This document shows positions 9,968-55,299 of a DNA stretch of 58,273 nucleotides, piece by piece. This DNA comes from an uncultured Rubrobacteraceae bacterium (lineage in GTDB: Bacteria > Actinomycetota > Rubrobacteria > Rubrobacterales > Rubrobacteraceae). The stretch covers positions 1-58,273 of the forward strand of contig CADCVF010000082.1 in NCBI GenBank assembly GCA_902806095.1, read 5' to 3'. The stretch's first letter is position 1. The number at the start of each line of letters is the position of its first letter. The notes under the pieces are model-generated. The model made no database searches and had not been told where the DNA came from. It saw nothing but the letters and a program-made list of their open reading frames with translations. A program made the position numbers and the translations under genes.

Positions 9968-10210
9968 TAGCGATGCCTCCTTTCTCTAGCCCTTGCCCTG
10001 CTGGGCACTTGCCTCGTACCTACTGCTCTCCATCATGCGCGCAGTACCCGTCGCCTTCCACCGACAAATCGTAGAAACGCCCGGATAATTGGCGAATAAA
10101 TCGGTGTATCGACAATCTCCGGGGGTTGGTCGCGTGCTATCATGCGCGCGCACCAGCAGGGTATGGTAGTGGCGAGCGTCCCTGAGCATAGACGCGAGGG
10201 AGAGCGAGTA
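9968..10210. other. divergent promoter region between SnoaL-like gene and regulator
   Basis: A 243-bp interval between two outward-facing genes. It must hold both promoters. TGCTATCATG near 10135-10144 could be a -10 for the regulator, but I cannot pair it with a good -35, and no obvious operator palindrome was seen. Confidence 0.35.
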
Positions 10211-37479: not shown

Positions 37480-38523
37480 TCAAGCGGCGCTGCGCGAAGG
37501 CGCTCGCGAATCTGCTATGAGGCTCTTGAAGACGGCATCGGAGATGCGCCTCTTGAGACACCGCAGCGCCTCCTTACGGGACTTGCCTTCCGCGATCTTC
37601 TTGCGGTAGTAACTCCCGCCCCGAGCGTCCGATCTGGCTTGGCAGATGGCGACCATGTGCAGAGCGTAGTTGAGCTTGCGGTTGCCTGCCAGCGAGAGCC
37701 TGTGGCGCATCACATCGCCGCTTGAGGCCTCCACTGGGGCCGTGCCCGAGTAGGAAGCGAAGTGTGCCCTGGTCGGGAAGCGCGCCACGTTGCCGACCGT
37801 GCCGATGATCCTCGCGGCCAGTATGGGACCCACGCCGAAGATTTCGGTAAGGGTGGTGCCGGAAGCTTCTACCTCGGCCTCGATGCGCTCGTTTAGGTCC
37901 GTGATCTTCCGATCCAGCGTCTGAATGTCGCGCAGGACCTCCGAAGCCAACCGCCGTCTGAGGCGGGCCGAGGCGCCGCCCTTGGGACGTATGCCGCGCA
38001 GAATGCGTGCGGTTCGGTGGGCCGAGAGCGTTCCGGCTATCCCGCCGGGCACGAGGTCTCGTAGAAGCCCGTGCAGGCGGTTGAGCGCCCTGGTACGTTC
38101 GGCCACCAGATCTTCGCGCCTCTCGGAGAGCAGGCGCAGCACCTCCTTCTCGGCCTCGGGCTCTACGTGCGCCAGCCTTTCGTTGCGCGAGGCGGCCAAC
38201 GCGGTGGCGAGCGCATCGACCCCGTCGTTCTTGCGAGCGTTGCCGGTTGAGAGCACCCTCACCCGTGCCGAAAGCTTCGGCGGCACGTCCACCACTGACT
38301 CGCCCGAGGCCGCTAACCTCCCCGCCAGGTGCCTACCTAGACCACCGGCGTTCTCCACCGCCCAACGCCGCTCGGGGAACCGTTTCGCCCAGCTCTCGAG
38401 GGCTCTCAAGCCGGCGCGGTTTTGAACAAAGCTAGCGCGCTCGAGGAGCTCGCCTAAGGCTTCGTCGATCACCGCGACGGCGACCGATCCTTTGTGGGGA
38501 TCGACCCCGATCAACGCCTTCAT
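37480..38523 (-). CDS. IS110-family transposase
   Basis: 347 aa, full-length. DEDD catalytic motif: GVDPHKGSVAVAVI near 5 (Asp), VENAGGLGRHLAGRLAASG near 59 (Glu), KNDGVDALATALAA near 100 (D-x-x-D), then the Tnp C-terminal serine domain with GVGPILAARIIGTVG near 229 and ASYSGTAPVEASSGDVMRH near 255 (Ser). The frame is intact, so it may still be active. IS110 elements lack terminal inverted repeats; the boundaries are not visible. ATG 38523; a longer upstream frame has no protein character. Confidence 0.92.
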   Translation of the reverse strand: MKALIGVDPHKGSVAVAVIDEALGELLERASFVQNRAGLRALESWAKRFPERRWAVENAGGLGRHLAGRLAASGESVVDVPPKLSARVRVLSTGNARKNDGVDALATALAASRNERLAHVEPEAEKEVLRLLSERREDLVAERTRALNRLHGLLRDLVPGGIAGTLSAHRTARILRGIRPKGGASARLRRRLASEVLRDIQTLDRKITDLNERIEAEVEASGTTLTEIFGVGPILAARIIGTVGNVARFPTRAHFASYSGTAPVEASSGDVMRHRLSLAGNRKLNYALHMVAICQARSDARGGSYYRKKIAEGKSRKEALRCLKRRISDAVFKSLIADSRAPSRSAA

Positions 38524-38903
38524 ACGCACGCACCTCCGTTTCGGTCGGATCCCTGCCATTGGCGTGCACGAAGGACAATCCGACTTCGGGCGGTGCTCCC
38601 ATACCTCTTTTGAGTCACTCCGCACGCCGCGGTCGCCGGCGGGACGCAAGCCTAGAACAAGCCAACCCATCCCAGGGGCGGCAGGAAGTTCGCGAGCGAT
38701 CCCTACCGGCGCCCTAGAAGCTTAGCGGCTGCAGACCACCGAGCTCCTGCTCGGAGTTAAACAAGTCGGAAGTTCGCTCTGCTTGACCCCAAGTGTCCTT
38801 AGCCTTGAAGGCTTCAGTATTTCTTGTTTTGGGTGCAGCCTTGCGAAGCTCATGCCCGCATAAACGCTGTCATCCTCTTTGCCACACTCAGGAGGAAAGC
38901 ATC
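38524..38903. other. flank between IS110 and amidase remnant
   Basis: About 380 bp without a supported gene. Part is presumably the left end of the IS110 element. No direct repeat of the target was seen by eye. Confidence 0.3.
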
Positions 38904-39398
38904 TCAACCATCTGCTGCCAGCAGCGACAAACCGATCGGTACGCCGTCGGAGGACTCCGCCACGGGCAACGACACTTGCGGCAGCCGTCCGATGCCAGCT
39001 ACGGAAGTCAGGGAGAGTGCACGGGAATAATAGTCGCTACCAGCCGATGCATGCCCGCGCAGCGCTATGGTGCACTTGAGCGGCGCCGAGGCCGGCGGCG
39101 TCGGTATGCACAGCAGATCGTTCGGCCCCAAGAACACCCTTAGCCTTCGGAAATACTCCTCACGGCGCTGAGTGGTCGGCCTCACCCTGCAGCGGTCCAA
39201 ACTCCTTACGAGATCGAAGTTCTGCGAGGCTTCTGGACCGAACGCGGATTTAGCCACCTCTACCCAGGCGCCGAGACGGCTTTCGATCTCCGCCCATTGC
39301 AGCACGCCGTAGGTATCGTGCCACGTTTGGAAGTCCGTGCCTTCCGATCCTCTTGCCGGCTCGCCGCCGATCTCCTCGATGATTGCTCCCTGTTTCAT
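38904..39398 (-). pseudogene. amidase-signature enzyme, C-terminal fragment
   Basis: The 164 residues read GVLQWAEIESRLGAWVEVAK, FGPEASQNFDLVRSLDRCRV, LRVFLGPNDLLCIPTPPASA and LSLTSVAGIGRLPQVSLPVA then GVPIGLSLLAADG, which is the C-terminal third of an amidase. The N-terminal catalytic half with the Ser-cisSer-Lys triad is absent, and the last few residues (about 10-20) are also missing. The fragment begins next to the GT1 gene with no start typical of amidases, so it is dead. Confidence 0.7.
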
Positions 39399-39408
39399 GC
39401 TTTTATTC

Positions 39409-40716
39409 TCATGCTCTCCCTCGGCGGGAACTCGCGAACAGCTGCTCGATCGCGTCGCAGGCGTCGCCCACGCCGTCCTCCAAGCGCACCACCCCGGCGA
39501 CCTCCCCAGCCCGACGGGCGTATTCCGATTCCGCTAGGAGGCCGCCGAGGCGCCTAGCGACGCGAGGGGCAGTATATTGCCGCGGGTAGAGAATCTCGGC
39601 ACCCCCCAACCTCTGGACCCTTAGGGCGTTGTCGGGCTGGTCAACTGCGAAGGGAACCACGAGTTGAGGGCGCCCGGCGCGGAGCGCGTGACCGATGGCG
39701 CCGATTCCCCCCTGGTGCACCACGGCTGCGGCCCGCGGGAAGAGTTTCGAGTACGGCGCGCGATCGACGGCCGCGACCCCCTCGGGCAGTGGCACGGGAA
39801 GGTGGTTCTTCGGGTCATTGCCGACCAGAAACAACGACCGGAGTTTGAGAATGCGCGTTGCCTTTAAGCTCTCGCGGTAGAAAGAACCTGCTGCGGGCCC
39901 CTTTCCCACCAACGAGGTGCCCAGCGTGAAGACGACCGGGGCCGGACCCGAGGCGAGGAACCGCTCGAGGTCCGGGGAGAGCCCGTCGCGGCCCGATCCG
40001 TCGTAGAAGACGTGTCCCGTGATCCTGGTATTCGGTGGCCAGTCCGGCCGGGGCTCCGCGAGCACGCGCGAGAACATGGCGAGCACGAGCTCGGGTGAGA
40101 ATTGCCCCTCATGGATGGGGTGCTTGCCTGGGGACAGACCGATCTCCGCCCGCAGCCGCCCAACCGGCTCCGGCCAGTGCCGCGTGGCCCGCTTGGCCAG
40201 CCCGACCACGGCGCGTCCCGTTCCGGGTCCGAGTCGCCGGAGCACTACTGCCAGGCGCGTGAACACGGGGAGGGCGGGGAAGTCGTAGGCCGAGAAGAAG
40301 GAGACGGGGGCAAGCACGGTCGAGACCCACGGGATGCTCACCTTCTCGGCCACTAGTGGCCCGGCGAAGGTGAGGGGGTGGGTCAGGAGCACGTCCGCTC
40401 CCCGCGTCGCCTTCGAGAGGTCCTCGTAGGATTCCTGCAGGCGTGGGAAGAGAAGCTCTTTCATGAGGTACCCGGGCGTCCGCCCGGGGTTCACGATCCG
40501 GCGAACCACTTCAGTATCATGGAGATTGCGGTCGGGGCGGACCGGTCTAAACCCGATCCCCTCAGCCTCGACGAAGGGTCGGTAGGACTCGGCTGTCGCG
40601 ATCGCAGGGTCGTGCCCGCGTGCTCTCAAGCCGAGGGCGAGACCGAGGTAGGGGTTGAGGTCCCCAAAAGAGCCAAAGGTCGTGATCACCACGCGATTAC
40701 CCACCAGCCCTCCCAT
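39409..40716 (-). CDS. GT1-family glycosyltransferase (macrolide/UGT type)
   Basis: 435 aa, GT-B fold. N-terminal domain begins RVVITTFGSFGDLNPYLGLA and LGLRARGHDPAIATAESYRP; the C-terminal nucleotide-sugar domain has PAPVVFTLGTSLVGKGPAAG, VDRAPYSKLFPRAAAVVHQG, GIGAIGHALRAGRPQLVVPF and VDQPDNALRVQRLGGAEILY. The H-Q-G-G (HQGGIGA) donor-site loop is intact. Such enzymes glycosylate lipids, sterols or polyketides. It is separated from the sulfolipid-like operon by 600 bp with an IS630 remnant and lies on the same strand, so involvement in the same pathway is plausible, not shown. ATG 40716; GTG 40704 is possible. Confidence 0.88.
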   Translation of the reverse strand: MGGLVGNRVVITTFGSFGDLNPYLGLALGLRARGHDPAIATAESYRPFVEAEGIGFRPVRPDRNLHDTEVVRRIVNPGRTPGYLMKELLFPRLQESYEDLSKATRGADVLLTHPLTFAGPLVAEKVSIPWVSTVLAPVSFFSAYDFPALPVFTRLAVVLRRLGPGTGRAVVGLAKRATRHWPEPVGRLRAEIGLSPGKHPIHEGQFSPELVLAMFSRVLAEPRPDWPPNTRITGHVFYDGSGRDGLSPDLERFLASGPAPVVFTLGTSLVGKGPAAGSFYRESLKATRILKLRSLFLVGNDPKNHLPVPLPEGVAAVDRAPYSKLFPRAAAVVHQGGIGAIGHALRAGRPQLVVPFAVDQPDNALRVQRLGGAEILYPRQYTAPRVARRLGGLLAESEYARRAGEVAGVVRLEDGVGDACDAIEQLFASSRRGRA

Positions 40717-41043
40717 GTCGCCCGATGCCAGGATTACATCGCTGGTGGCGAGGCCGAGTGGGCCGATCCCGCAACGAGATCTCGGGCCACCGCCGAGTTC
40801 GTCTCCGAGTCTTCCCATCTATGTCTTGAAAACCGTCGGCGAAGGCCGATCGACACGCCATTGTTTTAGCCCGTCTGGGAACGAAGTGGGACGCATGGCC
40901 AGCAAGGCAGGAAGTAGCGACAACCCGCCGGCGGTTGTGCGCCATCACCGCCCTCTCCATCGCCCTCCAGTTCTCCCACAACCCGATGTCTGAATCGCAC
41001 AAGAACAGTCTTGCGACCCGCTCTGTCCGTGTTCTAGCCGAAA
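40717..41043. other. intergenic stretch before IS630 remnant
   Basis: 327 bp without supported gene. The frame of the GT1 gene extends into it but without similarity. No promoter was identified with confidence. Confidence 0.3.
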
Positions 41044-41312: not shown

Positions 41313-42071
41313 TCACCCCGTATACTGCCAGCATGATGATCGCAAGTTGTGTTCGTCCACGACTAGTGCGGCAGCGTAGCCGGGGCCGGGAATCAGCTCT
41401 TGCATAGCCCATCTGAAGGGCTCACGAATGTCCTCCTCGACTTTCAGGAGCATGGCTGGCTGTCCTGGAGTTAAGGTGACCTCGAACCGGCTGAAGGGAA
41501 GCGTGAGTCCTCTGCCTTTGGCCTTTACGAAAGCCTCCTTCCGGGTCCAGCAGGCGAAGAACGCTTCCTTACGCGAGCTGTTGGTGAGCGAGCGGAGCGT
41601 GGCAACTTCCCGAGTTGCGAAATGACGTGAAGCAATCTCATCGAGCCCGAGATCGTCCCGCAAATGCTCGACGTCTACGCCGATATCTCTGTCGCGAACG
41701 AAGGCAAGGAGGACCAGATCGTGCGAGTGGGACGTGCTGAAGCGAACTCCGGGCGCGCCGACGAGAAAGGGTTTCCCATACGGATTGTAGCCAAATACGA
41801 GGCTGCCGGGTTGCGCCCGCAGGTAGCGCCCCAGAAGGACACGCAGCACCCCTCGCGAAACGACGAACCGCTTCCGATCGCCCTCGAAAACTAAATCGGT
41901 TGCCTTCTGCCGTTCGTCCTTTGCCAGGACGCGCCACAAGTCGTTCCTACGAGCGTAGGCGGATCTCACGTCCACGCGCCACACGTGGACCTCGTCGCCG
42001 GCCAGCATCAACGCGGCCGGCGGTGACACCCAAAACGGATCACGGGGCGTCGCACGTGTCAGTCCCGTCAC
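41313..42071 (-). CDS. 4'-phosphopantetheinyl transferase (Sfp type)
   Basis: 252 aa, the usual Sfp length. Motifs: GYNPYGKPFL near 92, the CoA/metal block FSTSHSHDLVLLAFVRDRDI near 111, IGVDVEHLRDDLGLDEIA near 130 (Mg2+ Asp and Glu) and FFACWTRKEAFVKAKGRGLT near 169. It would attach phosphopantetheine to the ACP of the PKS. The start GTG 42071 overlaps the stop of the MMPL gene as GTGA, making it the last gene of the operon. Cluster-borne PPTases are common in heterocyst-glycolipid (HetI) and PKS loci. Confidence 0.92.
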   Translation of the reverse strand: MTGLTRATPRDPFWVSPPAALMLAGDEVHVWRVDVRSAYARRNDLWRVLAKDERQKATDLVFEGDRKRFVVSRGVLRVLLGRYLRAQPGSLVFGYNPYGKPFLVGAPGVRFSTSHSHDLVLLAFVRDRDIGVDVEHLRDDLGLDEIASRHFATREVATLRSLTNSSRKEAFFACWTRKEAFVKAKGRGLTLPFSRFEVTLTPGQPAMLLKVEEDIREPFRWAMQELIPGPGYAAALVVDEHNLRSSCWQYTG

Positions 42072-44998
42072 ACCTGTCCCTTTTCTTGCTCTTTCTTCCT
42101 CAGTTGCTCGAGTCGTTCCATCTCCCTCCCTCGTAATTCCTCGAGGCGTCGGACTTCTGAGGACAGTCGTTGCTCTTGTTCGGCGGCCTGTGCGTAAGCC
42201 TTCCGGGCAACTTCTAAAGATCCGACTGCCTCATGCGCTGCCTTCCGAGCCAGCTTGTGTTCCGCTTCAACTACCTTCAGCCGCTGCGTCAGACGCTCAT
42301 AGTGCAGCTCGGTCCGCATAAGATCGGCTTCCTTGGTGAATTGGTCGAGGTTTTGGAGGAAGAGCCTGAACTCCTCAGGGTCTCCGTCCTTGCGTATGAC
42401 CTGTTCGAGCATGGTCCCGATCCGCCTCTTCGTCTCCACATAGCTGCGGTACGTCTCTTCGGCCTGCTCGATCTCGTTTTGTGAGCTCTGTCCCTTCATG
42501 CCGTCCTCCTCAGCACCAATGCCTGAACGCCGACTCGGCCGCTTCCGACCCGGCGTGAAAGTGCTCTTGCGACCGCCGGGCCACCAGTTCCAATCTCCGA
42601 GGATACGCATCGTGGCCGGGACGAGAAGGATCCGGATTATCGTCACGTCCACGAAGACGGCGACCGCGATGCCGAGGCCGATGGCCTTGGTAGTGCTGAT
42701 CTCGGTGAAGGCGAATGCACCGGTAACGCTAATGATGATCGCCGCTGCAGAGGTGATGATCCCGGCGGTGGAGACTAGGCCCTTGGCAACGCTGGCGGTG
42801 TTTGAGTCCCCGTTCTCGTAGGCCTCTTTCATCCGGGATAGCAGGAAAACCTCGTAGTCCATGGAGACCCCGAAGATCGTGCAGAACATCAGGATCGGAA
42901 GCGTCGCATCCACGAAGCCTAAAGGAGTGAAATTTAGCAGGCCGGAGAGGTTCCCGTCCTGAAAAACAAGGACCATCACTCCGAAGCTCGCCGTGAGGCT
43001 CAAGATGTTCACGATCACGGCCTTCAAAGGGATAATGAACGAGCGGAAGGTGAAGAAGAGAAGCAGATAGGTCACTCCCAGCACGAAGGCAACCGCGTAC
43101 AGGGCCTTGTCGTAGAGGCTGCCTATAAAGTCTCTTTGCCCGGCGGAAAGCCCGCCCACCAGGAAGCTAGTCCCCTCCGGCGGCTCGATGGACCGGATGT
43201 CCTCGATTGTGGCGCGGGCCTGCTCGCTGTAGGGATCGCTCTCGGTGACCGCCCGCAGCATGGTACGGTCGCCTCCAACGTAGGAGTCTATAGCCTGCTG
43301 TATCTCAGCCGACTCGCGGGCCTCGGGTGTGTCGAGAAAGTTAGCAATCCCCTGTGGTGTAACCTTGCCGGCGGCGGAGATGCCCTCCGGAAGCTCTGGG
43401 ACCTGCGACTCGATCTCTTCAGCTGCACGCGCCTCCGCCTTCTGGCGCACCCTCTCCTCGGCACCCGGCGGCACCACACCGAGCCTCCACTCTATGTTGG
43501 CGAGGCGCTGCTCGACCTCCGCATCCACCCGCCCACGGAACTCTGCTCTAGCCTTCTCGCGAGCTTCGGAGACGCGCGCGGCATACTCTCGCGTACCCTC
43601 CTCTCCCACAGTGTAGATGCTGTTGATGCTCTCTATACCCTCAGTGCTGCGCACTCGTTCACCAAGCTCTTGCGTGGCGGCGAGGCTCTCGACGCCCAAG
43701 GGGTCTCCGGGCGTGGAAACGAGCAACTGTATAGGGTTCAGACTCGCGTAGTCGAACTCCTCCCTGAGGATGTCGTCCCCGGTGCGGGACTCATAGCGTT
43801 CCGGGAGGACGCTGGCCTCGGGGATGCCGACCTTCATGTGCAGCACGGGGTGCAACAGGGCGGTGAGAACGGCGCCGACGGCGAGGAGCACAATCACTGG
43901 GCGGCGCATCACCAGCTCCGCGCTGCGTTCCCAGAACCAGGACCGTGTGGAGTCGAAGGAGCGGCGGCGAAGAGCGAGGGCGTTCACCCAGTAGCCCAGG
44001 ATGCCGAGGATTGCCGGTAGAAGCGTCAGCGCCGCCGCGACCGTGACGAAGACCACCACCACGCCCGCAACCCCGATCGAGCGCATGAACATGAACGGGA
44101 AAAAGAGTAGGCCGCTGAGCCCTATGAGGACCGCCGTGCCGGAGAAAAAAATCGAACGCCCTGCGGTAGCCATCGTGCGCGGCACGGCCTCCGCGACCAA
44201 ATAGTTCCCGAGTTCCTCCCGAAAGCGGCTCACGGCGAAGAGGGCGTAGTCTATCCCTAGGCCTAGCCCCAGCATCGTCGCGATGGATAGTGAGAAGACG
44301 GACATGTCATAGGCGCCAGAGAGAAAGTACAGCACGGCGAGCGTGGTTACGACACTCGCGCCTCCGACCAGGACAGGCACCCCGGCCGCCACGATGCTAC
44401 CGAAGGCGACCACTAGGATAATGAGTGCGAGTGGGAAGACGTAAGCCTCTGCTCGCCGGACACCTTCGCTGCTCGCCTTCTGGATGTCAAGGTAGACGGC
44501 GGGCGCGCCCGTCACGTAAGTCTGTGACCCTTCGGGGGCGTTTTCCTTCACTATCCGCCGCACCCGGTCCACCTGCTCTTGCGTCTGGTTTTCGGAGACC
44601 TCGAAGCCGACTACCGCGTAGCTATCATCGCCATCTTGGGAGATAAAGCGCCTGTCTTGAGAGTCAGAGTACGTGGTTACGAAGCGTGTCTCCTCTACCT
44701 CACGAACGCCTTCCAGGGAGGCGTTCTGCTCCTGCTGGAACTCCTCGCTGCGCGCCGGCGGGCTACCGTCGCCCCCAAAGACGATAAGGAGCCTCGCTGG
44801 CGAGGCCCCAAAATCCTCGCTCATGATGTCGCGCACCCGCTCGGATTCGGTGTCCGCACCCTCGAAGCCCCCGCCCTTGAGCCGCTCAGGTAGATTGGGC
44901 GCGAAGAACGCACTGCCTAGCACAACGAGCCCCCACAAAAGCACCACGAGCCACCTGTAGCGGTAGGTCAGGCGTCCGATGACGTTGAAGCCGCTCAA
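42068..44998 (-). CDS. MMPL-family lipid exporter with coiled-coil tail
   Basis: 976 aa. Two MMPL/RND repeats, each with a first helix, a large extracytoplasmic loop (about 40-180 and 420-615) and a five-helix bundle: repeat 1 with AFGSIVAAGVPVLVGGASVV and MLGLGLGIDYALFAVSRFRE; repeat 2 with FRSFIIPLKAVIVNILSLTA, FCTIFGVSMDYEVFLLSRMK and EISTTKAIGLGIAVAVFVDV. GIDYALF and SMDYEVF are the proton-relay Asp-Tyr motifs of MmpL proteins. Residues about 834-976 are an extra, charged coiled coil (RLKVVEAEHKLARKAAHEAV, RLSSEVRRLEELRGREMERL), not found in typical MmpLs. An internal ATG at 42500 with GAGGACGGC before it could release this tail separately. It begins 18 nt after the sulfotransferase gene. 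Confidence 0.9.
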   Translation of the reverse strand: MSGFNVIGRLTYRYRWLVVLLWGLVVLGSAFFAPNLPERLKGGGFEGADTESERVRDIMSEDFGASPARLLIVFGGDGSPPARSEEFQQEQNASLEGVREVEETRFVTTYSDSQDRRFISQDGDDSYAVVGFEVSENQTQEQVDRVRRIVKENAPEGSQTYVTGAPAVYLDIQKASSEGVRRAEAYVFPLALIILVVAFGSIVAAGVPVLVGGASVVTTLAVLYFLSGAYDMSVFSLSIATMLGLGLGIDYALFAVSRFREELGNYLVAEAVPRTMATAGRSIFFSGTAVLIGLSGLLFFPFMFMRSIGVAGVVVVFVTVAAALTLLPAILGILGYWVNALALRRRSFDSTRSWFWERSAELVMRRPVIVLLAVGAVLTALLHPVLHMKVGIPEASVLPERYESRTGDDILREEFDYASLNPIQLLVSTPGDPLGVESLAATQELGERVRSTEGIESINSIYTVGEEGTREYAARVSEAREKARAEFRGRVDAEVEQRLANIEWRLGVVPPGAEERVRQKAEARAAEEIESQVPELPEGISAAGKVTPQGIANFLDTPEARESAEIQQAIDSYVGGDRTMLRAVTESDPYSEQARATIEDIRSIEPPEGTSFLVGGLSAGQRDFIGSLYDKALYAVAFVLGVTYLLLFFTFRSFIIPLKAVIVNILSLTASFGVMVLVFQDGNLSGLLNFTPLGFVDATLPILMFCTIFGVSMDYEVFLLSRMKEAYENGDSNTASVAKGLVSTAGIITSAAAIIISVTGAFAFTEISTTKAIGLGIAVAVFVDVTIIRILLVPATMRILGDWNWWPGGRKSTFTPGRKRPSRRSGIGAEEDGMKGQSSQNEIEQAEETYRSYVETKRRIGTMLEQVIRKDGDPEEFRLFLQNLDQFTKEADLMRTELHYERLTQRLKVVEAEHKLARKAAHEAVGSLEVARKAYAQAAEQEQRLSSEVRRLEELRGREMERLEQLRKKEQEKGQV

Positions 44999-45016
44999 GA
45001 GACCGCCACCCGTCCT

Positions 45017-46141
45017 TTAAGAATCGCGGGGGTACCCCCACTCCTCAAAACTACGCTCCCAAGCATGCGCGATCTTCTCGCGCAACCCCGCCGGAAGCTC
45101 CGGGAATTCGTTCTTACGATAGCCTGAGACGCAGCCCACGTACTGCTTCAGCGAAGGCTCGAACTCCTCGAAGCCATGAATATCGAGGTGCTCGTAGATC
45201 CTCCTTACCACCCCAACCGGATCGCTTTCCAGTTCCTTGAAGCTGAGTTCGTGGAACCGGCCCTCGGGGATGAGATGCCTCTCTTCGAAAAACGAGTCGT
45301 ACATGATTCTGTAACGGCGGATGATCCGGGCGTCAGGATCCGGCGAACCCGGGGCCTGCAGGCAGAGGGTCTTATCCATTCGTAGCGTCCCCTTGGTGGA
45401 ACGGAACACTGCGTAGGGGTCGCGGTGGATGTGCACAAAGCGCGCGTCGGGAAACATCTCGAGAAGTAACCGGATTCGGCACGTGTGCGGCGGGGACTTG
45501 AGGACGAGTGGCCGGCCGAACTTCCAGGTCATCTTTTTGTAGAACAACATCAACGACTTTCGCCAGCGGGCCACCTCCTCTTCCGGGACGCCCCGGAAGG
45601 TTAGGTACTGGTCGTAGTGCTCCGTAGCCTCGGGGAAGGCGCCGGCCAAGAAAGGCGAGCACAGGGTGCCGCAGGTGGCGAACTCATCCTCGAAGGGGAC
45701 CTTGGCGCCGAGGTCCATACTGTCGATGAGGCGCGTCTTCGGCGAGGCAAGTTTGACGATATCCGAGTACCGCTCGGTGGTGAGGAAAGTGTGAGGGTTG
45801 AGGACTCGCCACACGTTGGGGTGCGCGAACTGCTTATCTAGGGCGAGCAGGTTGTGCAGGTACGTCGTGCCGCTGCGCCAGTGCCCGAGAACAAACAAAG
45901 GCTCCCTGACTTCGACGTTTGCGAACTCGGGGCCATACCTCCTATCTTCGTAGGCCCGGATCAGGGATGTTAAGGTGCAGGAGAGGATCATGAACGCCGC
46001 CCGGGGTAAGTAGGATGCGTCCACAGCGAAGCGATGCTTGCGGAGCAACGCTAAATACTCTTCCAGGGCCATCCCGTACAGGCTAGTGAACAGCCAGTGG
46101 GTCAGAAACACGCGGACCCTCTCTGCCGAGGCGCCGTTCAC
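45017..46141 (-). CDS. sulfotransferase family protein
   Basis: 374 aa of the Sulfotransfer_3 type. PAPS 5'-phosphosulfate loop: VLGHWRSGTTYLHNLL near 84-100; 3'-phosphate region VHIHRDPYAVFRSTKGTL near 235-253 (Arg and Ser). Family segments also include DEFATCGTLCSPFLAGAFPE and LVLKSPPHTCRIRLLLEMFP. It would transfer sulfate from PAPS to a hydroxyl, most probably of the sugar or the lipid alcohol made by its operon neighbours. Sulfation before export fits sulfolipid-1 of Mycobacterium (Stf0 with MmpL8). The start overlaps the glycosyltransferase stop by 4 nt. Confidence 0.92.
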   Translation of the reverse strand: MNGASAERVRVFLTHWLFTSLYGMALEEYLALLRKHRFAVDASYLPRAAFMILSCTLTSLIRAYEDRRYGPEFANVEVREPLFVLGHWRSGTTYLHNLLALDKQFAHPNVWRVLNPHTFLTTERYSDIVKLASPKTRLIDSMDLGAKVPFEDEFATCGTLCSPFLAGAFPEATEHYDQYLTFRGVPEEEVARWRKSLMLFYKKMTWKFGRPLVLKSPPHTCRIRLLLEMFPDARFVHIHRDPYAVFRSTKGTLRMDKTLCLQAPGSPDPDARIIRRYRIMYDSFFEERHLIPEGRFHELSFKELESDPVGVVRRIYEHLDIHGFEEFEPSLKQYVGCVSGYRKNEFPELPAGLREKIAHAWERSFEEWGYPRDS

Positions 46142-47346
46142 CGTATCTTCCTACCAACGAGCTCGACTGTACCGTCCGAGGCGACCCGCATCCTCCGCCC
46201 CCGCCAGACAACCTCATTCGTGAAAGCGGCGTATAACACAAGCGCCAGCCGCACCGCCTCCTGCACTAACACGACCCACAGGTACCGCCAAAGGCCCTCA
46301 TCCTTGACGAACCGCGCATTGACCACAGCCTGCGAGACCAGCGGCGTGCCGAGGGCTGCGGCCAAGAGGCAGGCACCGAAGACGAGGCTCTCACCTGCAA
46401 GCAGCGAGACCAGTAGGTAGAGCAGGGCCCACCAGGGCGCGAGGTCCATCACACTTGTGATGAGGAAGTTGTTCGGCCAGTAGCAGCGGATGGTCACCAT
46501 CCACCGGTGGAGGTGCGACCACCAGCCCTCGAAGCTGTAGTTCCTGTGGATGATCCGGGCCGGTTGCTTGAGCAGGTGAATCTGGTAGCCTTTGTCGCGT
46601 ATCGCCCTGGCGAGCGGGAGATCGTCTGCTATCTGGCGTCCGAACTGTTCGAGGCCCCCGGCCTGCTCGATCACCTCTTTACGCGCCACCATCGTGGTAC
46701 CTACGGCCCCGTCGAAGGCCCCGAAGAGGCACATAGACGCAAGCCGCAGGACGAATGCGTTCGCGGTGACGGCCATCAGAGCGGCCGCCCAGTTCTGCGC
46801 GCCCTCGTACGCCTGGGCGCCAAAGCCGAGCCCTATCTTCGTGATCTCGGTACACGCAACCGTCTCCCTCAAAAAGTTCGGCGGAACGTGGGCGTCGGAG
46901 TCACTGAAGATAACAACCTCGTACGAGCTGTGAGCGTAACCGGCGATCATGTTCTTTAACTTGCCCACCGACCTCGCATCCTCGGGGTCGCTGAAGATCA
47001 AGCGTACGTCCCTATCTGGGTACTCCTCGATGATCCTCTCTATCACAGGGACGGAAGGATCGTCCCGCCCCTCGACACAGAAGACGACCTCGTACGCGCT
47101 CGGGTAGTCCTGCTCGCAGAAGCCTCGGAAGTTACCCGACGCCGACTGGTCGATCCCTCTTGTGGGCTTGATGATCGACACGGGCGGCGCGTGTCCCTTC
47201 GTGGGGAAGCGACGGTCGTAGGACGCGAAGTAGTACCAGGCGAAGGCGTGCGAGAACAAGGTGCCGAGAACAGAGAGCGCCACGAGGGCGAGAAGCACAA
47301 GCTGCAGGACCTCCACGACCACGCGGATCCCCGACGCCTCATCCAC
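46138..47346 (-). CDS. ceramide-glucosyltransferase-like glycosyltransferase (GT21/GT2)
   Basis: 402 aa. A membrane helix (about 12-38) precedes a GT-A domain with PVSIIKPTRGIDQSASGNFR, VVFCVEGRDDPSVPVIERII, VIFSDSDAHVPPNFLRE (D-x-D), GTTMVARKEVIEQAGGLEQF and RQIADDLPLARAIRDKGYQI; then WWSHLHRWMVTIRCYWP (the RW motif) and three C-terminal helices. This matches ceramide glucosyltransferases and hopanoid HpnI-like enzymes, which glycosylate lipid acceptors at the membrane. It overlaps the reductase by 8 nt and the sulfotransferase by 4, so all are co-translated. Acceptor: presumably the reduced polyketide product. Confidence 0.9.
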   Translation of the reverse strand: MDEASGIRVVVEVLQLVLLALVALSVLGTLFSHAFAWYYFASYDRRFPTKGHAPPVSIIKPTRGIDQSASGNFRGFCEQDYPSAYEVVFCVEGRDDPSVPVIERIIEEYPDRDVRLIFSDPEDARSVGKLKNMIAGYAHSSYEVVIFSDSDAHVPPNFLRETVACTEITKIGLGFGAQAYEGAQNWAAALMAVTANAFVLRLASMCLFGAFDGAVGTTMVARKEVIEQAGGLEQFGRQIADDLPLARAIRDKGYQIHLLKQPARIIHRNYSFEGWWSHLHRWMVTIRCYWPNNFLITSVMDLAPWWALLYLLVSLLAGESLVFGACLLAAALGTPLVSQAVVNARFVKDEGLWRYLWVVLVQEAVRLALVLYAAFTNEVVWRGRRMRVASDGTVELVGRKIR

Positions 47347-48655
47347 CGGTAGGGGAGGCCAAAAAGCCGCTCCGAACGAGGTACACGAGGTACTTCTCGA
47401 AGGTCCCAGCGTCCACTGGCGGGCAGGAAATTTCGGTGCTCGCGAGCGCCGCCGTGGTGTTACGGCGGTCGAACTCAGGGATCGCCCGAACCATCTTCGG
47501 CCCTTCTATGGCCGCACTCATCGAGAGTAGGGGGGCCAAGGAGTACATCGCGTCCTCCCGCAGACCCTTCGCGGGGTTCAGCAGCTCCGTCCGCCACCCG
47601 TCGAACGGGATTCGCTTGAGTGGGTAACCGAACGCCTCGATCCAGGAAACAAGCTCGTCTACCTTCACAGGTTGAGGGTTGGCCAGGTGGAACCGCTTGC
47701 CTAGCGACCCTTCTTGTAGCGACAGGCGAACTATCGCCCGGCTCACGTAGTCCACCGGGACCATGTTCATCTCCGTGTCCACGTCGGGGACGTTGCCGAG
47801 GCCGACCCAGCTCTTGATCATCTTGCACGTGAAGTCGTCCTCGTTCCAGGCCCCCGTCTGGCTGTCGCCCGTGATCAGAGACGGCCGATAGATGCTCACG
47901 GGCAACCCCCTCGCACGCGCGATCTCCACCAGTTTCTCGGCGACCCACTTTGTCTGGGTGTACCCGTTGTAGAGAGACCCGCCGTGATCAAGGTCGTCGT
48001 CCTCCCGGACGACACCCGCGTCGGACCTGCCAACTAGGGGGAATATTCCTAAGGTGGACACGAAGTGCACGGGCTTCGCCCCGTGTCGGGACGCTAGTCT
48101 CAGCACCTCTAGCGTCCCGAGGACGTTGGTCGGCTTGAGCGCCTCGTACGGGTAGACCCAGTTCACCGAGGCACCGTTATGGTAGACGGCGTCGATCTCG
48201 GCCGCCAGCTCCTCGAACCGCTCGGCCCCGAGCCCGAGGAGCGGTTCGGAGAGGTCCCCTGCGACCGGGACGATCCTGGATGACCGCTCCTCGTCCCACA
48301 GTGCGTACGCTTCGAGCGACCCTCGAGTCCTCCTCTCGCCCTCCGCGACGTTGGGGGCACGCACTAGACAGTAGATCTCCGCACGCGTGTGCCGGAGTAG
48401 CTCGGAGAGCAGGAACGAGCCGAGAAAGCCCGTAGCCCCGGTCAGCAGAACGCGCTCCGGCCTGGGCGCGACCTGCGTGGAGACGGTACCAGTGGGCCGA
48501 ATTTCGGGGTCGAGTGCGGCCTCGGCCTTCAGATCCTTCACATTGATGGCGGCCTGTTCGAGCAGCTTGTCAAGGGTCCCGGACTTTTTCCGCAGCAACT
48601 GTGCAAGGAGGGCACGTTTCTCTTTCGGCGAGAGGTTCGACAGACGGTCGCTCAC
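47339..48655 (-). CDS. stand-alone thioester reductase (SDR-type R domain)
   Basis: 438 aa. Residues 1-50 form a helical segment (RLSNLSPKEKRALLAQLLRK) resembling a docking region; the remainder is an NAD(P)H-dependent R domain: LLTGATGFLGSFLLSELL near 70, EIYCLVRAPNVAEGERRTRG, AVYHNGASVNWVYPYEAL, FVSTLGIFPLVGRS, NGYTQTKWVAEKLVEIARAR (YxxxK) near 233 and IYRPSLITGDSQTGAWNEDD. It releases ACP-bound acyl chains as aldehydes or alcohols, as in heterocyst-glycolipid HglB/HetM and carboxylic acid reductases. Start ATG 48655 overlaps the PKS stop by 4 nt (ATGA). Confidence 0.93.
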   Translation of the reverse strand: MSDRLSNLSPKEKRALLAQLLRKKSGTLDKLLEQAAINVKDLKAEAALDPEIRPTGTVSTQVAPRPERVLLTGATGFLGSFLLSELLRHTRAEIYCLVRAPNVAEGERRTRGSLEAYALWDEERSSRIVPVAGDLSEPLLGLGAERFEELAAEIDAVYHNGASVNWVYPYEALKPTNVLGTLEVLRLASRHGAKPVHFVSTLGIFPLVGRSDAGVVREDDDLDHGGSLYNGYTQTKWVAEKLVEIARARGLPVSIYRPSLITGDSQTGAWNEDDFTCKMIKSWVGLGNVPDVDTEMNMVPVDYVSRAIVRLSLQEGSLGKRFHLANPQPVKVDELVSWIEAFGYPLKRIPFDGWRTELLNPAKGLREDAMYSLAPLLSMSAAIEGPKMVRAIPEFDRRNTTAALASTEISCPPVDAGTFEKYLVYLVRSGFLASPTGG

Positions 48656-51600
48656 CCGCTGGCTTCCTGCCCTTCCTCCACCAGATCGCGCAGCAGGGTA
48701 TCGACCTCCTCGTCCGACAGCTCTTCCACCTGAGCCTCTACTAGTCCTTCTCCGGTTTCCCCTAGCGCCGAAACCGACGCAGCATCGGCGGCAGTGGGTG
48801 CATCCAGCCCTTCAAGCAGGTGCGTGGCCAATTGGGAGAGGCTGGGACCTTGGAGCAGCGCTGTCACCGGCACGGACGTTTCGAGGTCCGCTTCCACTCG
48901 GTTCTTCAACTCGACAGCCATGAGGGAGTCAATGCCGAGGCGGTTGAGGGGCTGGTGGATGTCCACCTTGGAGGTAGGGCACCTCAGCACTGCAGCTAGT
49001 TGCTCCGCAAGGAAGTTCTCAGCAAGCGGGCGACGCTCCTCAGGCGGCGCGGCTCGTAGTTTCTCCTTGGTGAGGCCGTCCCCCCTGCGCCTGTGGCTTG
49101 GGGAGTTGGAGAGGTTCACCTCCCCAGCCAGCTCCGAGAGCAGCGGCGACGAGTAGGAGCTGAGCAGGCGGGTCCAGTCCACGGCGGCGGCCATCACCTG
49201 CACTGGGTTGCGTTCGAGGATCCGTCCCAGCAGCCGTGCTCCTTGATCCGGAGTGAACGCAACGAGGCCCTGGTTTGAGAGGTGCTGCGCCCGGTCCTCT
49301 CGGACCGCGAGGCCCACCTCGGCCCACGCCCCCCAGTTAATGGATACGGCGGGTAGACCGGCCGCCCGACGGTAGTGGGCCAGGGCGTCCAGAAACTCGT
49401 TGGCCGCAACATAGTTTGCCTGACCTGGGGACCCGAGCACCGAGGCCCCTGAGGAGAAGAGCATAAAGAAATCCAACTCGTCGTCCTGGGTTAGGCAGTG
49501 GAGGTTCCAGGCTCCGTCTACCTTGGGAGTCATCACGCTCTCAAAGCGCTCGCGGGTCTGTTGGATGAGGATACCGTCGTCCAGGACGCCGGCTGCGTGA
49601 ACGACACCCCTCAAGGGCAGACCCTCACGCCGCACCTCGTCGAGAATCTTGGCGACCTGGCCCTCCCTGGCCACGTCCGCCGCAGCGACTACGACCCGTG
49701 CGCCGGACTCCTCCAACTCCTGGAGGACCTCCCGGATCGCGTCGGAGGGACCGTTTCTCCCTACCAGCACCAAGTGCTGCGCTCCCTGCTCAATGAGCCA
49801 CCGCGCGACCGTCAATCCGAGTCCGCCGAGTCCACCCGTGACGATGTAGGTTCCGTCGGGGCTTATCGTTACTGGCTCTTCAGCCTTGGGGACGACCCGT
49901 ATCTCGTCCTCGTCGAGGGTCACGATGACCTTGCCTATGTGCTTGGCCTGCGCCATATGCCTGAAGGCGTCAACGGCCTTGGAGATCGGGAACGTTTCGA
50001 AGGGCAAAGGCTCGAGTTCATCCTCCTCGAAGTATCGCACGGCCTCGCGCAGGAGATTCCTGCTCAGGGCGGGCTGCGTCTGCATCATCTGCGAGAGGTC
50101 TATGGCAAAGAACGAGATGTTTTGTTCGAGCAGCCCGAGGTCCAGCCGGGTGTTACGTAGGAAGTCAACCTTGCCGATCTCGAGAAATCTCCCGCCGGAC
50201 CGGAGGATCGAGAGGCTCTTGGGGATAAACTCCCCGGCCAAGGAGTTGAGCACCACGTCCACGCCCTCGCCGCCCGTCAGCTTCATCACCTCATCGGCGA
50301 AGTCCAATGACCTCGAGTTCATAACGTGCTCGATACCGAGGGACTCAAGAAACGCGCGCTTCTCGGCGCTCCCAGCGGTGGCGAAGATCTCGGCCCCCTT
50401 CCACTGGGCTATGCGTACTGCGGCCTGCCCGACACCCCCGGCGGCGGCGTGAATCAGCACCCGCTCTCCCTCCATGAGCCTGCCGAGGTGACTCAGGGCG
50501 TAGTGCGCGGTGAAGAAGGCGATTGGGACGGTCGCGGCTTCCTCGAAGCTCAGGCCCTCGGGCTTGGGCATCACGAACGTGGCGCCCGTCGTAACGAAGG
50601 AGCCCAGGCAGGACGGGGCGAAAGCAACGACACTGTCCCCAATCTCGACACCCTCGACGCCCTCCCCAACCTCCGAGATCTCACCCGCGCACTCGAACCC
50701 GATGTCCAGCGAGTCCTCGAGCACTGGTGGGACGAGGTCCATCGCGATCAAGACATCCCTGAAGTTCAGGCCGACCGACCGCACCCGGATCTCTACCTCC
50801 CCGGGCCCTGGCTTCTTGCGCTCGGTTTCCCGCAGCTCGAGCGCATCCAAAATGCCGGGCTTCGGCACCTCTAGCCGAAAGGGTTCTGCTGCGGAGACCG
50901 CCTTCCTCTCTTCCGTCTCCTCCGGCGCGTACCGTACCAGCCGCGGCGCGAGGCGCGCGTCTTTGCGCAGCGCCACTTGATCCTCCTCGCCCTCCGACCA
51001 CAATTCTTGGAAGAGCGCTTGCGTTCCCTCGGGCCCCATCCCGGGATCGAGGTCTATCTTCGTGCAACGGAGTTCCGGGAGCTCGATGGAGACGACCTTC
51101 CCAAAACCCCAAAGCGGCGCCTGAGCGACGGCCACGGGCGCGGGGTCCCTCGCATCCTGGGACCCGCGTGTCACCAGCCAGAGTCGGGGGAATCCGGCAC
51201 TTCCCGCCTCGGCCTGGGCCCCCACCAGGGACTGGACTAGATGCAGTCCGCCAACGCACCCCATCAGCGCCGACGATTCGAGGGAGTCAAGCGTGGTCTC
51301 CTCCGATGGGGCGGCGTCCAGGCTCCACAGGTGGACCACCCCCCGTAAGGGCGGTTGGTCGGGTCCGAGAGCGTCAGCGAGCAGTCTTTTGAAGTCCTCA
51401 AGGCTCGCGGCGCGGAGCTCGTACGAGTCCGCCTCCCTTTCACGGTATGCTTCTCCCTGAGAGACGACAACGCACCTCTCACCGCGCTCCACGAGTAGCT
51501 CGCGCAACCCTCTCCAGAAGTCGCTCTCATCGGCCAAGACGAGCCAACTTCCTTCTCCTTCAAAGGCGGGTACCTCTTCTTGCGACGGAGAATCCAGCTC

Positions 51601-54600
51601 TCGCCACTGCACCTCGTACAGCCAGTCGTCGAGGTCCTCCGCGGTGCCACGTTCCGGGTTGGCCTTTAGGGCCTGGAGTCGCATTCCCCGCGCCTCCAGG
51701 ATCACCTGCCCGGCATCGTCGAGCAAGAATACGTCTCCCTCAAGCGCCTCTGTTGTCCCTTCGCCAACCTCTGAGCGCAGGAGCGCGTGGCTCCACACCC
51801 CGATGGCGGGATCGCCGAGGAGCCGCAGCTCGCTCAACCTCACCGGCAGGTATATCTCCCCCTCTTCGGCATCATTCCCCATAAGGGTGGCAGCCAGCAC
51901 CTGGAAGCAGGCGTCTAGCACGGCGGGGTGGATCCTGTAGGCGGACGCCTCGGAAGCCACCGCATCCGGGACGCGCAGTTGGCCTATGGCCTCCCCATTC
52001 CGGCGCCAGATTCTCTCGACCCCCCGGAAGCTGGGGCCGTACTGCAACCCGTGCTTCTCCATTGCCTCGTATAGCTCCTTGGCCGAAGCCTCCACCTTGC
52101 ACCTGGCTCTTATCGCCTCTGGCGACTCGTGCTCCGTCGCCTCGACAGCCGCCTTGTTCGGGCGCACTGTTCCGCCAGCGTGCAGCGTCCAGGGTTCCCC
52201 GTCGGTGGCGCCCGCCGGTGGACTGTAAAGCTGGATGGAGGCGTCGCCGACCATCCGCGGGGAGAGAACCAGCTGCACCTCCCCCTCGCTGTCTTCGGGA
52301 ACGAAGAGAGCCTTTGAGAACTCCATCCCTTCTACGGCATGAGACCCCGGGCCGTAGACCTCCTCCGAGGCGCTTAGGGCCATCTCCAAGTAGGCCGCCG
52401 CCGGCAGCAATGCGACCCCCTGCACCCGATGGTCGCCAAGGTAAGGGAGCAGGTGGGTGTTGAGCTCCATCTCCCAGAAGTGTGTCCGTGAATCGGCTGC
52501 CGACCTGAGGTGCGTCCCGAGCAGGTGTCCCTTCCCGTTCCTTCGCGCGGCCCGCTTCTTCCATCCGTTGCTGGCCTCCGCACCCTCGAGCCAGAAGCGT
52601 TCTCGTTGCCACGGATAGAAGGGCAGCCGGACGCACCGGCTGCCCGGCCAGCCGACCGCCTCCCAGTCCACCGGGTATCCAAGGGTGTGTAGGGCGCCGA
52701 ACGAGCCCAACATCACCACCCGGTCCTCACCCTCGCGGAGGGAGGGCAAGACCCTGCCCTCGCGGCCGAGGTGGCGCAGCCCCTGCTCGACAGCGCCAAG
52801 GAGGACGGGGTGGGGGCTGATCTCCAGAAAGACCTCGTGGCCGTCCTCCGCCAGCCGCTCCACCGCCTTCGAGAAGAGCACGGGTTGGCGCAGGTTTTCT
52901 ACCCAATAGACGCAGTCGAAGTCCCCGCCGTCGCCGGCTTCACCCGTGACGGTCGAGTAGATCGGTACCGACGAAGATTGTGGCCGAATCCCCTCCACCG
53001 CCTTCAGGAGCTCGGGGCGCAAGGGCTCCACCTGCGGGCTGTGGGAAGCGTAGTCCACCTTAATCCAGCGCCAGAAGACGCCCTTCTCCTCGAGCCTCGC
53101 CAGGATCTCCTCGAGCGCTCCAGGGTCCCCGGAGAGCACCGTGGAAGATGGGCTGCTGCTGACGCCGATGGAGACGCAGTCCTCGTAGCCCGCGAGGGTG
53201 CTCTGCGCCTCCTCCAGCGAGAGTGCCACGACGGCCATCCCGCCTCGCCCGCTCATGGACTTCACCAGTCGGCTACGACGGCAGATGATACGGGCAGCAT
53301 CGTCCAAGCTGAGAGCGCCTGCCACGTGGGCCGCCGCAACCTCGCCCAGGCTCTGTCCCACCACCGCGTCAGGCTCGACGCCCCAGGAGCGCCACAGTGC
53401 CGCCAGGGCCACCTGCACTGCGAAGATGGCTGGCTGGATGACGTCGACCTCCTCCAGCCGGGACTGCTCGCCGTCGGCGGCGAGCTCCTCCAGCAAGAAC
53501 CAGTCAACGTACTTTTGGATCACCTTGTCGCAGCGCTCCATTGCCTCGCGGAAGACGGGCTCTTGTTTCATCAGCTCCTGCCCCATGCCGATCCACTGCG
53601 ATCCTTGGCCGGAGAACACGAAGGCCAGCTTCGGACGGCGACCCGGGACCCGGCGGCCGGCGTGTAGGCCGGGACGGAATTCGTCGCTCAAGAACGCCTC
53701 CAACTGCTCGGCCATCTCCTCCTGAGAGGAGCCCAGCGCCACTAACCGGTGGTCGTGGTGGCTTCTCCTGACGCCGGCGGTGTAGCAGATGTCCCGCAGC
53801 GAGGAAATACCTTCCTCGGCCCGCAGGTACTCAAGATGGGCTCGCGCTGCGCCTTTGAGGGCTTCCGGGCTATGGGCGGACAGTGGCAGCAGGTGGGAGG
53901 TCGCTTCAGTTGGAGCCCCCGCTACTACTGGCAGAGCTTCGGGGGCTTCCTCCAGGACGACGTGGGCGTTGGTGCCGGAGATGCCGAAGGAGCTCACCCC
54001 GGCGCGAGCGGAGCCGGGATGGTCCGGCCAAGGGCCAAGCTCCCGTTGGACTACGAGGGGGAGCGCTTCCCAAGGTATGTTAGGATTCGGCTCTTGCAGG
54101 TGCAGGCTGGGCGGGACAGTCTTGTGCCGCAGGGCGAGCGCGACCTTGATCAGGCCGGCTACCCCGGCCGCACCTTCTGCGTGCCCGATGTTGGTCTTGA
54201 CGGAACCGACAACACAGGGAGACCCCTCGTGCCGACCCTCGCCGACCACCGTCCCGAGGGCCTGCACCTCCACAGGGTCGCCAACCGGTGTGCCCGTACC
54301 GTGCACCTCAACGTACTGGACCTCGCCCGGCGAAATACCGGCACTTCGGTAGGCCTCCCGGAACACCGCCTCCTGTCCCGGGCGGCTCGGCGTCATCAAC
54401 AGGCCGCCGGAATCTCCGTCGTTATTGACCGCGCTACCCCGGATAACAGCGTAGATGGGGTCCCCGTCCGCGAGGGCTGAGGATAACCGCTTGAGCACGA
54501 CAACCCCGGCGCCTTCACTGCGCACAAAGCCGTCCGCGCGGGAGTCGCCGAACTTACAGCGCCCGTCGGAGGCTAGCATCTGAGCCCCGGCGAAGCCTAT

Positions 54601-55299
54601 GTAGGGGTGGGGTGAGAGGATCAGGTTGACCCCCCCGGCGAGGGCTACCTTACTCTCCTCGCTCCACAGGCTCTGGCACGCGAGGTGAACGGCGACCAGC
54701 GACGTCGAGCAGGCAGTGTCCACCGTCATGCTGGGTCCCTGCAGACCCAATACGTAGGAGAGGCGTCCAGAGAGCACACTCAAGGCGTTCCCCCCGGCGA
54801 CGTAGATATCGATGTCGGCGATATCTTCGAGTAGGTGGATGTAGTCGGTATTACATGTACCCGCGAATACCCCGGTTCGGCCAGCGTCCAAATCCTCTGG
54901 TACCAGACCAGCGTCTTCGATAGCCTCCCAGGTCACCTCCAACATCAACCTTTGCTGAGGATCCATGGCGGAGGCTTCGCGGGACGAGATTCCGAAAAAG
55001 AAGGGATCGAACTCGTCAATCCCTTCAAGAAAACCACCCCACTTGGTGTTGATCTTACCTGGCATTCCAGGTCTAGGATCGTACACCTCCCCGACGTCGA
55101 ATCGGGTGGCGGGGATTTCTGTGATAGCGTCCACGCCCTCGCGCAGGAGCTCCCAGAAAGCCTCGGGGCCCCTGGCGTTCGGGAACCGGCAGCCGATGCC
55201 AATTATTGCGATCGGCTCCCTCTCCGCCCCTTCCATCCGGAACCTACCATTCTGCGAGCCAGTGGCTGGTCCTGCAACAGAACGTTTCTCCAACTCCAT
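48652..55299 (-). CDS. type I polyketide synthase, KS-AT-DH-ER-KR-ACP
   Basis: 2215 aa, one complete fully reducing module. KS about 27-450: Cys 197 in DTACSTS, His 333 in EVHGTGT, His 373 in NIGHAEG. AT about 555-870: Ser 650 in GQSLGE and the specificity motif YASH at 750-753, usual for methylmalonyl-CoA (malonyl types have HAFH). DH about 935-1220: His 957 in GDHRVQGVALLP and Asp 1129 in HPAVLDACFQ. ER about 1480-1800: NADPH site IHAAAGGVGQAA at 1616-1627. KR about 1815-2000: TGGLGGLG, LDD loop (B-type) and Tyr 1963. ACP about 2085-2170: Ser 2125 in GIDSLMA. The tail VEELSDEEVDTLLRDLVEEG is acidic and helical. No thioesterase, loading domain or NRPS part. Iterative use, as in mycocerosic acid synthase, is likely. 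ATG 55299 has GGGGAGGAG upstream. Confidence 0.95.
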   Translation of the reverse strand: MELEKRSVAGPATGSQNGRFRMEGAEREPIAIIGIGCRFPNARGPEAFWELLREGVDAITEIPATRFDVGEVYDPRPGMPGKINTKWGGFLEGIDEFDPFFFGISSREASAMDPQQRLMLEVTWEAIEDAGLVPEDLDAGRTGVFAGTCNTDYIHLLEDIADIDIYVAGGNALSVLSGRLSYVLGLQGPSMTVDTACSTSLVAVHLACQSLWSEESKVALAGGVNLILSPHPYIGFAGAQMLASDGRCKFGDSRADGFVRSEGAGVVVLKRLSSALADGDPIYAVIRGSAVNNDGDSGGLLMTPSRPGQEAVFREAYRSAGISPGEVQYVEVHGTGTPVGDPVEVQALGTVVGEGRHEGSPCVVGSVKTNIGHAEGAAGVAGLIKVALALRHKTVPPSLHLQEPNPNIPWEALPLVVQRELGPWPDHPGSARAGVSSFGISGTNAHVVLEEAPEALPVVAGAPTEATSHLLPLSAHSPEALKGAARAHLEYLRAEEGISSLRDICYTAGVRRSHHDHRLVALGSSQEEMAEQLEAFLSDEFRPGLHAGRRVPGRRPKLAFVFSGQGSQWIGMGQELMKQEPVFREAMERCDKVIQKYVDWFLLEELAADGEQSRLEEVDVIQPAIFAVQVALAALWRSWGVEPDAVVGQSLGEVAAAHVAGALSLDDAARIICRRSRLVKSMSGRGGMAVVALSLEEAQSTLAGYEDCVSIGVSSSPSSTVLSGDPGALEEILARLEEKGVFWRWIKVDYASHSPQVEPLRPELLKAVEGIRPQSSSVPIYSTVTGEAGDGGDFDCVYWVENLRQPVLFSKAVERLAEDGHEVFLEISPHPVLLGAVEQGLRHLGREGRVLPSLREGEDRVVMLGSFGALHTLGYPVDWEAVGWPGSRCVRLPFYPWQRERFWLEGAEASNGWKKRAARRNGKGHLLGTHLRSAADSRTHFWEMELNTHLLPYLGDHRVQGVALLPAAAYLEMALSASEEVYGPGSHAVEGMEFSKALFVPEDSEGEVQLVLSPRMVGDASIQLYSPPAGATDGEPWTLHAGGTVRPNKAAVEATEHESPEAIRARCKVEASAKELYEAMEKHGLQYGPSFRGVERIWRRNGEAIGQLRVPDAVASEASAYRIHPAVLDACFQVLAATLMGNDAEEGEIYLPVRLSELRLLGDPAIGVWSHALLRSEVGEGTTEALEGDVFLLDDAGQVILEARGMRLQALKANPERGTAEDLDDWLYEVQWRELDSPSQEEVPAFEGEGSWLVLADESDFWRGLRELLVERGERCVVVSQGEAYREREADSYELRAASLEDFKRLLADALGPDQPPLRGVVHLWSLDAAPSEETTLDSLESSALMGCVGGLHLVQSLVGAQAEAGSAGFPRLWLVTRGSQDARDPAPVAVAQAPLWGFGKVVSIELPELRCTKIDLDPGMGPEGTQALFQELWSEGEEDQVALRKDARLAPRLVRYAPEETEERKAVSAAEPFRLEVPKPGILDALELRETERKKPGPGEVEIRVRSVGLNFRDVLIAMDLVPPVLEDSLDIGFECAGEISEVGEGVEGVEIGDSVVAFAPSCLGSFVTTGATFVMPKPEGLSFEEAATVPIAFFTAHYALSHLGRLMEGERVLIHAAAGGVGQAAVRIAQWKGAEIFATAGSAEKRAFLESLGIEHVMNSRSLDFADEVMKLTGGEGVDVVLNSLAGEFIPKSLSILRSGGRFLEIGKVDFLRNTRLDLGLLEQNISFFAIDLSQMMQTQPALSRNLLREAVRYFEEDELEPLPFETFPISKAVDAFRHMAQAKHIGKVIVTLDEDEIRVVPKAEEPVTISPDGTYIVTGGLGGLGLTVARWLIEQGAQHLVLVGRNGPSDAIREVLQELEESGARVVVAAADVAREGQVAKILDEVRREGLPLRGVVHAAGVLDDGILIQQTRERFESVMTPKVDGAWNLHCLTQDDELDFFMLFSSGASVLGSPGQANYVAANEFLDALAHYRRAAGLPAVSINWGAWAEVGLAVREDRAQHLSNQGLVAFTPDQGARLLGRILERNPVQVMAAAVDWTRLLSSYSSPLLSELAGEVNLSNSPSHRRRGDGLTKEKLRAAPPEERRPLAENFLAEQLAAVLRCPTSKVDIHQPLNRLGIDSLMAVELKNRVEADLETSVPVTALLQGPSLSQLATHLLEGLDAPTAADAASVSALGETGEGLVEAQVEELSDEEVDTLLRDLVEEGQEASG

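Follow-up and report, generated by a model that had tools for sequence, protein, structure and literature searches.

The analysed window, a stretch of 58,273 nucleotides that corresponds to contig C82 of a 3.8 Mb Rubrobacteraceae assembly (98.6% complete), carries six consecutive genes on its minus strand. From the upstream end, these encode a type I polyketide synthase (PKS; 48652..55299, 2215 aa), a free-standing thioester reductase (TR; 47339..48655, 438 aa), a membrane glycosyltransferase of the GT21/HpnI-like type (GT; 46138..47346, 402 aa), a PAPS-dependent sulfotransferase (ST; 45017..46141, 374 aa), an MMPL/RND exporter (42068..44998, 976 aa) and an Sfp-type 4'-phosphopantetheinyl transferase (PPTase; 41313..42071, 252 aa). 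The PKS/TR, GT/ST and MMPL/PPTase junctions overlap by 4 nt each and the TR/GT junction by 8 nt, and a gap of 18 nt (44999-45016) lies between ST and MMPL. Re-checking the open reading frames confirmed the coordinates, the common strand and all of these junctions as given in the first-pass annotation, and the enzyme identities and the operon proposed there are likewise upheld by Pfam, NCBIfam and PDB matches and by intact motifs. All six frames are intact, with GC3 values of 0.70-0.82, and the named domains reach Pfam E-values between 1e-18 and 1e-97, so the six-gene set is not a product of chance. The PKS has two in-frame starts, a TTG at 55338 and an ATG at 55299; the latter is the better one, with a good ribosome-binding site (GGGGAGG) just before it. 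A 16S rRNA gene was looked for in the host assembly and not found. The genes around the operon had brought Chloroflexota into consideration as the host phylum; this was rejected because WhiB occurs in other members of the phylum and because a congener is on public record as Rubrobacteraceae.

As for the surroundings, some 500 nt past the end of the PPTase gene and on its strand there is an intact EryCIII/UGT-like glycosyltransferase gene (39409-40818, minus strand), which could be either a second glycosyltransferase of the pathway or unrelated to it. Farther downstream there are an amidase remnant (38904-39398), an IS110 transposase (37480-38670) and a phage-type integrase (33840-34970), which suggest that this part of the contig is mobile or has been rearranged. 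The window also encodes a helix-turn-helix/NB-ARC/TPR regulator-like protein (10142-12679) and a SnoaL-SpoIIE fusion (19760-20929).

Predicted enzymes of chain building and release

The KS-AT-DH-ER-KR-ACP order proposed earlier for the PKS was found again, with every catalytic motif intact, and together with the methylmalonyl-type motif of the AT domain it comprises all the features of a reducing PKS of the MAS type. Among solved structures, the nearest is that of mycocerosic acid synthase, or MAS (9d2z, matched over residues 28-2175). The score against the Pks2-family model NF041183 is 1511 bits, below the cut-off of 2400, and that against the PfaA model is 409 bits, below a cut-off of 1010. 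The AT domain carries the GQSLGE and YASH motifs, as does that of the relative in the congener G017, and this pair is usually taken as methylmalonyl-specific; the related PKS of Gloeothece has instead HAFH, which we take to be the malonyl type. The enzyme is thus predicted to use methylmalonyl-CoA as its extender, and the two methylmalonyl-CoA mutase genes matched in the host genome are in keeping with a supply of this precursor. On these three grounds (the YASH motif, the MAS-like PKS and the two mutase genes), the methyl-branched chain put forward in the first-pass annotation gains support as a prediction from sequence. No fatty-acyl-AMP ligase that would load a starter is found among the six genes of the operon.

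The TR scores 370 bits against TIGR01746 (cut-off 213) and its closest PDB entry is the R domain of MxaA (4u7w, E=3e-113). It is 42-52% identical to cyanobacterial reductases, including those of hgl islands, for which the range is 44-51%, a measure of pairwise identity and not of fit to an HglB-specific model. The best matches retrieved outside Rubrobacteraceae are cyanobacterial, many of them from loci with a PfaA-like KS and a PPTase, a list that is biased towards cyanobacteria because the search patterns drew partly on cyanobacterial sequences. In the one of these loci that was scored against the HetI model, the PPTase exceeds the cut-off. R domains of the myxalamid type are reported to carry out a four-electron reduction that yields primary alcohols (PMC2835699), and the TR is predicted to be of this alcohol-forming type and to release a primary alcohol in the same manner. 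A different protein, in which an AMP ligase, an ACP and a TR are joined, is encoded in most Rubrobacteraceae genomes in frames of ~1010-1140 aa; in the host it lies near mutS/mutL (contig C39, 42812-43972; locus L075, 9777-13157). Regarding the PPTase, it matches PF01648 (E=2e-18) and shares 36-41% identity with HetI, and it scores 192 bits against the HetI model, below the cut-off of 370 (Nostoc hetI reaches 447).

Predicted tailoring and export enzymes

The GT belongs to the GT21 type by its match to PF13506 (108 bits, cut-off 21.7) and by its closest structure, the ceramide glucosyltransferase 26qf (E=4e-33), and the motif alignment shows that it keeps three motifs of its HpnI-like relatives, DSD, ADD and HxxRW. 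HpnI and ceramide glucosyltransferase share these catalytic motifs with it and act on lipid-alcohol acceptors. It differs from HpnI in scoring 212 bits against TIGR03472 (cut-off 310), in its identity of 26-28% and in lying outside any hopanoid locus. Besides itself, only generic relatives (21-28% identity) were found among 396 genomes of the phylum, and the GT used alone as a query against genome contigs retrieved no relative. Neither its acceptor nor its sugar can be read from the sequence, since both GT and ST are only ~25-35% identical to anything found.

The identification of the ST as a sulfotransferase holds (PF13469, E=4e-36, 126 bits against a cut-off of 27), with the correction that it belongs to the Sulfotransfer_3 group, its closest solved structures being 2z6v and 2zq5. 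Both PAPS loops (the GHWRSGTT and HRDPYAVFRS regions) align with those of 2z6v, as in a PAPS-dependent sulfotransferase, and the three full-length APS kinase matches in the host genome (contig C70, 10643-11089; C54, 84591-85040; C53, 5662-6108) are in keeping with a supply of PAPS. A weak match to 4gox, the sulfotransferase domain of a polyketide synthase, has E=0.002. Within the order (39 genomes, all of one family) the ST has only weak partial matches, and in the phylum sample the best match is 33% identical. Relatives elsewhere occur in diverse contexts: directly after a GT gene in the carotenoid clusters of Azospirillum and Palleronia, next to a P450 gene in a mycobacterium-like genome (with PE/PGRS genes) and inside a cysC-cysD-cysN cluster in Parabacteroides, an arrangement that is known for the cholesterol sulfotransferase BT_0416 (PMC9417993).

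The exporter was correctly assigned to the MMPL proteins (PF03176), a feature that it shares with the sulfolipid-1 locus, and the PDB match to 7nvh makes it MmpL3-like. The earlier annotation is amended in that a Rubrobacteraceae MMPL is present twice in this genome, the operon protein being the second copy and not one shown to be sulfolipid-specific: strong relatives exist in 38 of the 39 genomes of the order (59-71% identity where the match is full-length), among them another host copy on contig C36 that is 63% identical. In the tree, the operon copy groups with one from another genus (G012; support 99/99) and not with sequences of its own genus, and the C36 copy groups with those of the congeners, so that the operon copy is a second one whose history in the family has been its own. 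Most other matches stop near residue 825, and the last 151 residues (826-976; 42071..42523, minus strand), a charged C-terminal extension, matched only their own locus by tblastn among all loci compared. That this extension might dock the synthesis enzymes is a guess, one that agrees with proposals of a coupling of synthesis to transport by MmpL proteins (PMC4183827).

A separable core and its relation to known loci

The PKS occurs in 2 of the 39 genomes of the order, and close matches to GT and ST are confined to the present one. In the second genome, that of the congener G017, the PKS, the TR (75% identical) and the PPTase (62%) form one group, in which 68 nt separate the last two genes and neither GT nor ST nor MMPL intervenes; the neighbouring genes also differ, being glycerol-3-phosphate dehydrogenase genes there and a beta-propeller gene here. 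The two parts are therefore separable, and the comparison indicates that GT-ST-MMPL form a block of their own set inside a three-gene fatty-alcohol core of PKS, TR and PPTase. A gain of the block in this genome is favoured over its loss in the congener because GT and ST are absent from the rest of the order, within the limits of what two genomes can decide. The KS of the congener is 86% identical and the remainder of its PKS ~62%, which suggests that the KS has undergone gene conversion or has evolved unequally, and its PKS gene (contig C223, 2541-9180; locus L073) is split over frames in a draft contig, reflecting either decay or an assembly error.

How does the operon relate to the two systems of which the first-pass annotation had called it a mixture? 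The mycobacterial sulfolipid-1 locus comprises Pks2, PapA1/PapA2, MmpL8 and FadD23, together with Stf0. In common with it, the operon has a reducing PKS of the MAS/Pks2 type predicted to use methylmalonyl-CoA, an MMPL exporter and a sulfated glycolipid as product, the last being only predicted here. However, the chain is transferred by PapA enzymes in the sulfolipid-1 pathway, whereas the operon has a release reductase; trehalose acylation has its counterpart in a GT21-type enzyme; and FadD is part of one and not of the other, the exporter of which is MmpL3-like. Neither PapA acyltransferases nor FadD were found in the six reading frames or in the neighbouring ones scanned. Hence, the analogy stands for the PKS and the MMPL and fails for PapA and FadD, and, with the PKS below the Pks2 cut-off, membership in the sulfolipid-1 locus type was rejected.

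With the hgl island of heterocystous cyanobacteria, the operon shares a TR similar to the hgl-island reductase, a HetI-like PPTase and the logic of a PKS followed by a reductase, a GT and an exporter. In that system, knockout of HglT, the final glucosyltransferase, leads to accumulation of the fatty alcohol in Anabaena (PMC7360850). Unlike the operon, hgl islands have an ABC exporter, HglT as GT and no sulfotransferase. Their PKSs are PfaA-like and related to PUFA synthases (PMC11804610), and the KS of the operon is only ~31% identical to those of hgl loci, for which reason the operon cannot be counted among the hgl islands; the absence of the PfaA-like PKS set and the sub-threshold HetI score led to the same rejection. 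That analogy is thus retained for the TR and the PPTase, which resemble HglB and HetI, and dropped for the PKS. Taken in this way the idea of a mixture is supported, with PKS and MMPL on the mycobacterial side and TR and PPTase on the hgl side.

By its logic, the nearest cluster is that of Pleurocapsales cyanobacterium LEGE 06147 (KS 60%, TR 49% and PKS 39% identity, the last over 1723 aa), which combines a reducing PKS and a PKS-TR protein with an adjacent GT28-like glycosyltransferase and DevBCA-like exporter. It differs in having two PKSs, a reductase fused to a PKS, a GT28-like instead of a GT21 enzyme and an ABC exporter, and neither a sulfotransferase nor a PPTase was found in the stretch examined. 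A plasmid cluster of Gloeothece verrucosa PCC 7822 unites a related PKS (40%) with a related ST (30%), but contains an acyl-AMP ligase, an ACP, a weakly AurF-like protein and the HAFH-type AT, and no TR-GT-MMPL set. Across 80 loci with related reductases, no relatives of GT, ST or MMPL appeared within the stretches examined. The six-gene order was found here only, in samples that were not exhaustive, and the open-access literature yielded no description of a Rubrobacter cluster of this kind. Each enzyme is of a known kind, and their combination was met in no other genome searched.

A proposed pathway for an exported sulfoglycolipid and its alternatives

The enzyme classes, their intact motifs, the supply genes of the host and the four overlaps of a tight operon can be observed directly, and they fit a single pathway. 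In it, the PPTase would prime the carrier domain of the PKS, which would act iteratively with methylmalonyl-CoA to build an acyl chain that is fully reduced and probably bears methyl branches; the TR would free this chain as a fatty alcohol through two hydride transfers; the GT21-type enzyme would place a sugar on the alcohol at the membrane; the ST would transfer sulfate, with PAPS as donor and the sugar as the most likely target; and the MMPL would move the product outwards. This follows the earlier reading of a fatty alcohol that is glycosylated, sulfated and exported, of which the enzyme set stands as observed, and we infer the flow of substrates between the enzymes (including the action of GT and ST on the PKS product), the chain, the sugar, the site of sulfation and the export. 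We consider the chances evenly balanced that the operon serves the synthesis and export of a sulfated glycolipid. The narrower proposal, in which a methyl-branched polyketide alcohol is made into a sulfated glycoside and exported, forming a new class of Rubrobacteraceae envelope lipid made by a pathway with a block inside a core, is tentative and stands at less than an even chance.

Do the core and the block act on the same molecule? The alcohol made by PKS, TR and PPTase might be used elsewhere, in a wax ester or an ether lipid, while GT, ST and MMPL glycosylate, sulfate and export a different lipid. The core does exist without the block in G017, and the AMP-ligase-ACP-TR protein of most family genomes represents fatty aldehyde/alcohol chemistry apart from the operon. 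Nonetheless, the block sits inside the core with overlaps of 8 nt and 4 nt at its edges, which favours co-expression and one pathway, and we regard such a division as unlikely, if deserving of some weight. The acceptor of the ST could also be the lipid alcohol or some other molecule: if the enzyme sulfated the alcohol or a chain hydroxyl directly, alkyl sulfates would result and the GT would make a parallel alkyl glycoside. The relatives in the cysCDN cluster of Parabacteroides, as with the sterol sulfotransferase BT_0416, and beside a P450 gene agree with this, but the 4-nt GT/ST overlap and the relatives that a GT gene precedes in carotenoid clusters speak against it, and the direct route seems rather improbable.

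A role of the ST as in CurM and the olefin synthases, activating a beta-hydroxyl for decarboxylative loss to give a terminal alkene, is hinted at by the weak match to 4gox. It is made highly improbable by the lack of a thioesterase in the operon, and a fully reducing PKS followed by a reductase and the better matches to 2z6v and 2zq5 point the same way. Finally, the presence of the PKS in so few genomes of the order, the nearby integrase and IS110 transposase and the broken frame in G017 would suit a laterally acquired island that is silent or decaying and has no current product; six intact frames with their GC3 values argue against such an island, and we give this little credence.

If the exported sulfoglycolipid is indeed the product, a family of actinobacteria that lacks WhiB (absent in 13 of 13 members tested and present in other members of the phylum) would join chain building and export of the mycobacterial type with reductive release of the cyanobacterial type. 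A group that has been little studied would thereby gain one more class of lipid, and the operon would show cleanly how a block for tailoring and export has enlarged a pathway whose shorter version is kept in the congener G017.
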